From assembly GCA_016177775.1 (NCBI GenBank), contig JACOUQ010000037.1, positions 124,001 through 188,000 on the forward strand: a DNA stretch of 64,000 nt, in the 5' to 3' direction. Made by a program: the position numbers and the translations under genes. The notes beneath the pieces were generated by a model, which saw nothing but the letters and a program-made list of their open reading frames with translations, was not told the DNA's origin and ran no database searches. The DNA is from Geobacter sp. (GTDB lineage Bacteria; Desulfobacterota; Desulfuromonadia; Geobacterales; Geobacteraceae). Below are positions 14,625 to 45,233 of this stretch, piece after piece (position 1 is the stretch's first letter; each line of letters begins with the position of its first letter).

Positions 14625-14653
14625 TTGACAAACCCTCCTGAAAATTGTATACA
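14625..14653 (+). promoter_or_regulatory. sigma-70 promoter of acnB
   Basis: TTGACA at 14625-14630, exactly 17 bases, then TATACA at 14648-14653. The icd promoter on the other strand has the same two hexamers and the same spacing. Confidence 0.8.
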
Positions 14654-14693
14654 GTATGCAATCCACAAGGTCGCACATCCATACCGTATACAC
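14647..14693 (+). promoter_or_regulatory. double operator at the acnB promoter
   Basis: GTATACAGTATGC (14647-14659) overlaps the -10 and differs by one base from the palindrome GTATAC-N-GTATAC. A second imperfect copy, CCATACCGTATAC, lies at ~14680-14692, downstream of the expected transcription start. The same palindrome lies over the icd -10. The binding protein is not identifiable here. Confidence 0.6.
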
Positions 14694-14740: not shown

Positions 14741-17284
14741 ATGATCGAAGCGTATCTTGCCCACGAAGCCGAGCGCAAGGCGCAGGGAATTCCCGCGCTG
14801 CCCCTTAACCCCGAGCAGACCGTCGGGCTGTGCAAGCTCCTTGAAGCGCCCCCCGCAGGGAAGGAAGCGTTCCTGCTCAACCTGCTCAAAGAGCGGGTCT
14901 CCCCCGGCGTCGACCCCGCCGCTGAAGTTAAGGCCGCATTCCTGGCAGAAATCATCAAGGGTTCCAAGAAGTCTCCCCTTGTTTCCAGAAAGGACGCGGT
15001 ACAGATCCTCGGCACCATGATCGGCGGCTACAACGTGGCTCCGCTGATAGACGCACTCACCGACGCCGAGCTTTCAGAAGTCGCCGCCTGCGCCCTCTGC
15101 GGCATGACCCTGGTGTACGATGGCTTCGACAAGGTAGTGGAGCTCTCCAAGTCCAACGCTTCCGCGAAAAAAGTCCTGGAGTCGTGGGCCAATGCCGAGT
15201 GGTTCACAAAGCGCCCCGGCGTTCCCGAGACCATCAAGGTCAAGGTCTTCAAGGTGGAAGGCGAGATCAACACCGACGACTTCTCCCCGGCTGGCGACGC
15301 CTGGAGCCGCCCGGACATCCCGCTCCACGCCCTGGCCATGGGCAAGACCCGTTTCCCGAACCGTCTCGCGCAGATCGCCGAGTGGCGCGCAGCAGGCAAC
15401 CAGGTCGCCTTCGTCGGCGACGTGGTCGGCACCGGTTCTTCCCGCAAATCTGCCTGCAACAGCGTGCTCTGGCACATGGGGCAGGATATCCCATGTGTTC
15501 CCAACAAGAAGACCGCAGGCGTGATCATCGGCGGCGTCATCGCCCCGATCTTCTTCAACACTGCCCAGGATTCCGGCGCGCTCCCCATAAAGGCGGACGT
15601 CACCAATGTGAACGACGGCGACATCATCACCATCAATACCAAAAAGGGTGAGATCACCAACGAAAAGGGTGAGATCGTCTCCACCTTCAAGCTCAACCCC
15701 AATACCATTGCCGACGAGTTCCGCGCCGGCGGCCGCATCCCCCTCATCATCGGCCGCGCCGTCACCGAGAAGGCCCGCAAGGCCCTCGGCCTCGGCGACA
15801 CCGACGTGTTCACCCTGCCGGTCAATCCGACCCCGAAGGCGAACCAGGGGTACTCCCTGGCCCAGAAGATGGTCGGCAAGGCGTGCGGCGTGACTGGTGT
15901 CCTCCCCGGCACCGCCTGCGAGCCGAAGATGACCACTGTCGGTTCCCAGGACACTACCGGCCCCATGACCGCCGACGAGCTGAAGGAACTGGCCTGCCTC
16001 AGGTTCCAGTCCCCGATGTTCATGCAGTCCTTCTGCCACACCGCCGCCTATCCGAAGCCGGCGGACGTAAAGATGCACAAGAACCTCCCCAAGTTCATGA
16101 TCGAGCGCGCCGGAGTCCCCCTCAAGCCGGGGGACGGCGTCATCCACTCCTGGCTGAACCGCCTGCTCCTCCCCGACACGGTCGGCACTGGCGGTGACTC
16201 CCACACCCGCTTCCCCATCGGCATCTCCTTCCCGGCCGGCTCCGGTCTGGTTGCGTTTGCCGGCGCCATGGGGTTCATGCCGCTGGACATGCCGGAATCA
16301 GTGCTGGTCCGCTTCAAGGGCAAGCTGAACCCCGGCATCACCCTGCGCGACGCAGTGAACGCCATCCCCTACTGGGCCATCAAGCAGGGTAAGCTGACCG
16401 TGCCCAAGAAGAACAAGGTCAACATCTTCAACGGCCGCATCTTGGAGATGGAAGGGCTTCCCGAACTGACCGTGGAGCAGGCCTTTGAGCTGACCGACGC
16501 CGCTGCCGAGCGTTCGGCTGCCGCCGGCTGCATCCAGCTCTCAAAGGAGAGCGTTGCCACCTACCTGCGCTCTAACGTGGCCCTCATGAAGAAGATGATT
16601 GCTGACGGCTACCAGGATGCAAAGACCTTGCAGAACCGGATCGATGCCGTCAATGCATGGCTGGCCAAGCCCGAGTTGCTTGAAGCCGATAAGAACGCGC
16701 AAGAAACCGGCGCTTACGCCGACGTGATCGAGATCGACCTGGCCGACATCACTGAGCCGATCCTCGCCTGCCCGAACGACCCGGACGACGTGAAGCTCCT
16801 TTCCGACGTGGCCGGTACCCCGATCCAGGACGTGTTCCTCGGTTCCTGCATGACCAACATAGGCCACTTCCGCGCCGCCGCCGAGATCTGGCGCGGCCTG
16901 AAGTTCAACCCGGCAGTGCGCACCTGGATATGCCCGCCGACCCGCATGGATCAGCAGCAGCTCAAGGACGAGGCGTATTTCTCGGTCTACAGCGCCTTCG
17001 GCGCCCGGATTGAGATCGCAGGCTGCTCCCTCTGCATGGGGAACCAGGCCCGCGTGCCCGACGGGGTGAACATGTTCTCCACCTCCACCCGCAACTTCGA
17101 CGATCGGATCGGCGACGGCGCCAAGGTATTCCTCGGCTCAGCCGAGCTCGGGGCGGTAGCCGCCACCATGGGCAAGCTCCCCACTGTTGCCGAGTTCATG
17201 GCAGTCTACAAGGAGAAGGTCGAGCCGAAGAAGGATGCGATCTACAAGTATCTGCAGTTCGATGAGATGGCTGAATATAAGTGA
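14741..17284 (+). CDS. acnB: Aconitate hydratase B
   Basis: The protein has 847 residues, against about 865 for E. coli AcnB. It has the AcnB order: an N-terminal helical HEAT-like domain (1-~155), a swivel domain (~160-370), then the catalytic core. The [4Fe-4S] cysteines are in [10 protein letters not shown] (near 705) and GCSLCMGNQ (near 763), and GGDSHTRFP is near 484. It isomerises citrate and isocitrate in the TCA cycle and may also act as 2-methylisocitrate dehydratase. Start ATG is behind AGGAGGAGAG. It is monocistronic, with its own promoter and terminator. Confidence 0.97.
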
Positions 17285-41873: not shown

Positions 41874-42854
<981 letters not shown>

Positions 42855-42872: not shown

Positions 42873-45110
<2,238 letters not shown>

Positions 45111-45181: not shown

Positions 45182-45233
45182 GCCGTATACGGAGATATGG
45201 TTTGTGTATACAGTATACAGTATGTGGTGTCAA
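45182..45233 (-). promoter_or_regulatory. icd promoter with palindromic operators
   Basis: On the minus strand TTGACA (45233-45228), 17 bases, TATACA (45210-45205). The perfect palindrome GTATACAGTATAC (45206-45218 on the plus strand) covers the -10. A second site, CCGTATACGG, lies at 45183-45192, downstream of the start point. The layout is the same as at acnB. Confidence 0.75.

Follow-up and report, generated by a model that had tools for sequence, protein, structure and literature searches.

The acnB promoter carries a real and conserved site that is predicted to be of the repressor type. The same site is common to most promoters of the acetate-oxidation and respiration genes, where it is most likely read by one autoregulated GntR-family regulator. 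On comparative sequence grounds, we consider it probable that GTATAC-W-GTATAC (in full, TTGTATACWGTATACAA) is the operator of P0001, an autoregulated GntR/FCD repressor acting on the acetate-oxidation pathway. Computation established the site and its enrichment, the genes that it marks, how well it is conserved, that it co-occurs with the regulator and that the regulator's own promoter carries it.

Geobacter-type bacteria live by complete acetate oxidation, and the throttling of the acetate pathway under hydrogen or another donor has so far been credited to one reported repressor. A defined operator, a regulon and a candidate protein make this throttle question testable and offer a way to tune current production or the use of acetate. 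The new part is the operator and its breadth. The regulon itself is of a known kind because the targets of HgtR and the binding of GSU3370 to gltA have already been reported. Both reports are said to originate with Ueki and Lovley in 2010.

Operator copies at acnB and icd

The window (the whole stretch of DNA analysed, 64 kb long) contains a TTGACA-17-TATACA promoter upstream of acnB, with GTATACAGTATGC over its -10, as read directly. The features of the acnB and icd regions were the following.

14625..14630, plus strand: -35 hexamer TTGACA of the acnB promoter, read directly
14648-14653, plus strand: -10 hexamer TATACA of the acnB promoter, at a 17-bp spacer from the -35
14647..14659, plus strand: main operator GTATACAGTATGC, one mismatch, over the acnB -10; conserved at the same promoter position
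14679..14691, plus strand: weaker downstream copy CCATACCGTATAC, two mismatches, read directly
14741..17284, plus strand: acnB, bifunctional aconitate hydratase 2 / 2-methylisocitrate dehydratase, 847 aa (NCBIfam TIGR00117, above cut-off)
41874..42827, minus strand: mdh, malate dehydrogenase, adjoining icd (NCBIfam TIGR01763, above cut-off)
42873..45095, minus strand: icd, monomeric NADP-dependent isocitrate dehydrogenase (NCBIfam TIGR00178, above cut-off)
45233-45228 and 45210-45205, minus strand: icd promoter, TTGACA -35 and TATACA -10, respectively, with a spacer of 17
45206..45218, minus strand: exact operator GTATACTGTATAC over the icd -10; conserved at icd in G003, G009 and Seleniivibrio
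45213..45225, minus strand: overlapping copy ACATACTGTATAC with a third half-site at a 7-bp shift, from the window motif scan

The initial annotation had described a near-perfect 13-base palindrome on the acnB -10 and a second, imperfect copy approximately 30 bases downstream. Both were confirmed, the first at 14647-14659 with one mismatch and the second as CCATACCGTATAC with two mismatches, and their centres were 32 bp apart. If transcription starts near 14660, the CCATACCGTATAC copy lies at about +20 to +32. Given 54 two-mismatch sites per 3.42 Mb, approximately 0.003 such sites would be expected within 100 bp. Because the downstream copy was absent from every relative examined, the paired acnB layout is not supported; a conserved looping arrangement of the pair was considered and dropped, the second site being private to this genome. 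Second, weaker sites were also found in this genome at gltA and at the CoA-transferase gene (62 and 156 bp away, respectively), so auxiliary sites may be a local peculiarity. In the acnB promoters of relatives, TTGACA or a near-TTGACA hexamer was found at the same distance from the operator.

The only exact copy in the 64-kb window was that of icd (45206-45218). The earlier description of icd as the other paired site was right in part: an exact copy does lie over the -10, but there it belongs to three half-sites 7 bp apart, unlike the separate sites of acnB. Judging from their adjacency, mdh and icd are probably in one operon. In all, the window contained 15 motif matches with three or fewer mismatches, compared with a shuffle mean of 5.5, and 0 of 100 shuffles reached 15.

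Targets and conservation of the motif

The window belongs to the 3.42-Mb draft genome of a Geobacter relative, which was scanned with the reversed pattern as the control. Exact sites numbered 6 (0 in the control), and sites within one mismatch numbered 15 (4 in the control). The genome scan at two or fewer mismatches, which had been proposed with the original observation, could not separate signal from noise: it returned 54 sites versus 53 in the control, equal to chance, and only thresholds of zero or one mismatch were useful. Based on 100 unique sites, the extended motif was a 17-bp palindrome, TTGTATACWGTATACAA.

The six exact sites lay upstream of the ATP synthase b-subunit gene, nuoA, icd, sdhC/frdC (b558 family), the succinate/acetate CoA-transferase gene and the gene of the GntR/FCD regulator. 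One-mismatch sites included those of acnB, gltA, a c7-type cytochrome gene and a putative SfrB-like NAD(P)H oxidoreductase gene, so named from its domain order (NuoF-like Fe-S region plus GltD-like). No clear target was found for 5 of the 15 sites within one mismatch (L007, L008, L009, L013 and L015). Matches had been predicted at TCA and acetate genes, and the best sites were indeed at gltA, sdh/frd, nuo, atp and the acetate CoA-transferase gene. A full-text literature search for GTATAC in Geobacter returned no relevant paper. Heptanucleotide repeats and paired sites have been described in G. metallireducens (PMC2700814), but these were rejected as instances of the motif because their sequences are different (GGGACCG, GTTGCTYN, TCTCCGTS and MTYCTGA).

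Across 17 genomes, exact copies were found 87 times, compared with 2 for the reversed pattern. The 37 family genomes with a P0001 ortholog contained 423 sites within one mismatch (64 in the control), whereas the 10 genomes without an ortholog contained 48 (37 in the control) when the incomplete G004 was left out; with G004 kept, the latter total was 57 versus 38. The excess of the motif was significantly associated with the presence of the ortholog (Mann-Whitney test, all 11 non-ortholog genomes included, P = 1.5e-5). In G004, a 78% complete genome, the motif was present and a P0001 ortholog was not found. G042 had 10 one-mismatch sites versus 0 in the control, yet it was without any FCD protein.

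The palindrome on the acnB -10 proved to be conserved in close relatives, being present in 17 of 17 family genomes with the GntR ortholog and in 0 of 7 without it. It was located in 15 named or MAG loci, including those of Pelotalea chapellei, Geomonas edaphica, Malonomonas and a Seleniivibrio MAG. A similar trend was found for sdhC/frdC, with a site within one mismatch in 11 of 13 genomes with the regulator and in 0 of 2 without it. Nine copies of gltA had a site within 320 bp of the start, and the second gltA copies of G014 and G030 were without one. The Seleniivibrio MAG, which we assign to Deferribacterota on the basis of its genus, had sites at acnB, icd, an SfrB-like/NuoG-type operon and a molybdopterin oxidoreductase gene, and near a hydrogenase-type gene cluster. 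Separately, a contig titled Methanococcoides vulcani, an archaeon (L056), carried an acnB 76% identical to the present one and without the operator, which reflects either gene transfer or contamination.

The leaders of two of the target genes showed other conserved elements. Before sdhC/frdC, 14 of the 15 regulator-bearing genomes examined had a short upstream ORF with a strong ribosome-binding site and the form M(Q)....WR[A/G]PP; the fifteenth, G038, had MKPLRAPP in its place. These ORFs lie outside the window (L004, at G000:C24:49965-50009 on the minus strand, L149 and L210-L222). Of the 48 family genomes, 35 had the corresponding DNA pattern, each of them once, and the reversed control had none. 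The conserved part runs no further than WRxPP, which is also where the ORF of G014 and G006 ends. Known ribosome-arrest peptides have R-A-P-P/G as their core (PMC7897499), so the ORF resembles an arrest leader peptide of succinate dehydrogenase/fumarate reductase. Between the sdh -35 and -10, the palindrome AAAACGACGTTTA was observed in many family genomes, and AACGGCATTTA in the Geomonas-like ones (L004 and L210-L222); this palindrome is possibly the site of a second regulator. At gltA, a conserved GGAAAGGAGG was found about 100 bp upstream of the start codon, with no obvious ATG ORF after it (L169-L179).

The regulator and its predicted mode of action

P0001 is a GntR/FCD protein of 234 aa with an exact site upstream of its gene and selA next to it (G000:C37). 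Both of its domains scored over the cut-off (GntR winged helix PF00392, 67.5 bits; FCD PF07729, 103.4 bits), and orthologs at about 70-76% identity were found in most of the family. The regulator's own promoter contained GTATACTGTATAC or GGATACTGTATAC in 21 of 21 gntR loci read, 39-46 bp upstream of where the match begins; the count excludes nine loci that are stored on the opposite strand. Exactly one FCD-domain protein each was found in this genome, G003, G005, G037 and G047, so that, as far as these partly incomplete assemblies go, no other protein of that class can read the site there. The operator consensus of the GntR/FadR subfamily is GTM-N0-1-KAC (PMC4494728), and the GTATAC core within the AT-rich palindrome TTGTATACWGTATACAA fits it.

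In the Seleniivibrio MAG, an exact site precedes two gntR paralogs (46% and 37% identical). The tandem FCD regulators of Seleniivibrio and a divergent pair in G052 lie under or next to the same operator (L155 and L127), which suggests duplication of the regulator. In the FCD metal site (Asp plus three His), the His of DFH and the His of EEH were kept in the orthologs. The last His was Asn in all aligned Desulfuromonadia orthologs except one, which has another non-His residue, and it was kept in both Seleniivibrio paralogs.

The operator covers the -10 at acnB and icd, so a bound protein would exclude RNA polymerase from these promoters. When hexamers were read by eye, the sites of gltA and nuoA were on the transcribed side of the -10, and that of the gntR promoter was between the -35 and the -10. 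These five positions would suit repression. We infer that P0001 physically binds the site, that the sign of its action is repression and that its effector is a small organic acid. In the mechanism that we propose, dimers of P0001 would bind the GTATAC cores, keeping RNA polymerase off the -10 of acnB and icd and blocking early transcription at gltA and nuoA, where the operator directly follows the core promoter. Citrate synthase, aconitase, isocitrate dehydrogenase and succinate dehydrogenase would then be turned down together, along with acetate CoA-transferase, complex I and ATP synthase, and P0001 would limit its own synthesis through its own operator. The initial annotation had proposed one repressor for the entry steps of the TCA cycle. 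One regulator very probably does act at acnB and icd, but its scope appears wider, taking in complex I, ATP synthase, succinate dehydrogenase and its own gene.

In the Geomonas-like sdh operon, the site is upstream of the -35 and ends about 8 bp from it, a placement that suits activation and would also allow it there. The same GntR protein could then be mainly an activator, or could act in both ways, its sign being set by the position of the site; we regard this as unlikely, because the sites of acnB, icd, gltA, nuoA and gntR overlap or follow the core promoter, where a bound protein normally blocks.

A somewhat smaller probability attaches to the motif being the site of HgtR (GSU3364), induced during hydrogen growth, with gntR merely another target. 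HgtR is reported to be a repressor of gltA, atpG and nuoA in G. sulfurreducens (PMC7726332; PMC7894505), and these genes have motif-bearing counterparts here. However, the motif goes with the GntR ortholog throughout the family, occurs on gntR promoters even in another phylum and has a core of the GntR type, and a GntR protein of little-known role, GSU3370, is itself described as binding the G. sulfurreducens gltA promoter (PMC10599522). A search for HgtR six genes from gntR in G009 and G003 gave no clear candidate. It is highly improbable that the motif is simply a common sigma-70 -10 form (TATACA) repeated by chance in AT-rich promoters: the -10 elements of acnB and icd are inside it, but 13 bp are fixed while their position relative to the promoter varies among targets, the 87 exact copies versus 2 reversed contradict such an origin, and acnB promoters are without the motif in genomes without the GntR gene.

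A broader and more tentative proposal, to which we give slightly less than an even chance, is that complete acetate oxidation has a single GntR/FCD regulator, kept through Desulfuromonadia into Deferribacterota, as its master switch. Via the tandem GTATAC operator, it would coordinate every stage of the pathway, beginning with acetate activation, continuing with the TCA cycle and ending with complex I and ATP synthase; it would also sense a TCA intermediate directly.

Comparison with known regulators

P0001 resembles the FadR/FCD repressors of the GntR family (PdhR, LldR, GlcC and NanR) in combining a winged-helix GntR domain with an FCD domain. The palindromic GT..AC site and the autoregulation are also alike, and the effectors of these repressors are carboxylic acids (PMC4494728). 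Whereas most of them have one site, whose spacer is 3 nt (PMC4494728), the operator here places two GTATAC cores (2-nt spacer), and sometimes three, 7 bp apart. A further difference is that the regulon predicted here spans central metabolism and respiration.

The closest solved relative of P0001 was the protein of PDB 7xp0/7xp1 (E = 2.9e-31), which we take to be PmiR of Pseudomonas aeruginosa, a sensor of 2-methylisocitrate. If this identity is correct, the likeness would extend to a ligand that is a tricarboxylate related to the substrate of AcnB. Because the Desulfuromonadia orthologs have another residue in place of the last metal-site His, their ligand may differ from that of the 7xp0/7xp1 protein.

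GSU3370 shares with P0001 the GntR family and the gltA promoter, and is possibly its ortholog. Presumably, GSU3370 has ispD/ispF and rpe as neighbours, an arrangement that would agree with the surroundings of P0001 in G009 and G003. No regulon or operator for GSU3370 was found in the literature searched. The HgtR regulon is similar in that the counterparts of gltA, atpG and nuoA carry the motif here (for atp, the b-subunit gene), and in the repression of TCA and energy genes, which is predicted here from the position of the sites. It differs in that the motif described here tracks a GntR/FCD protein.
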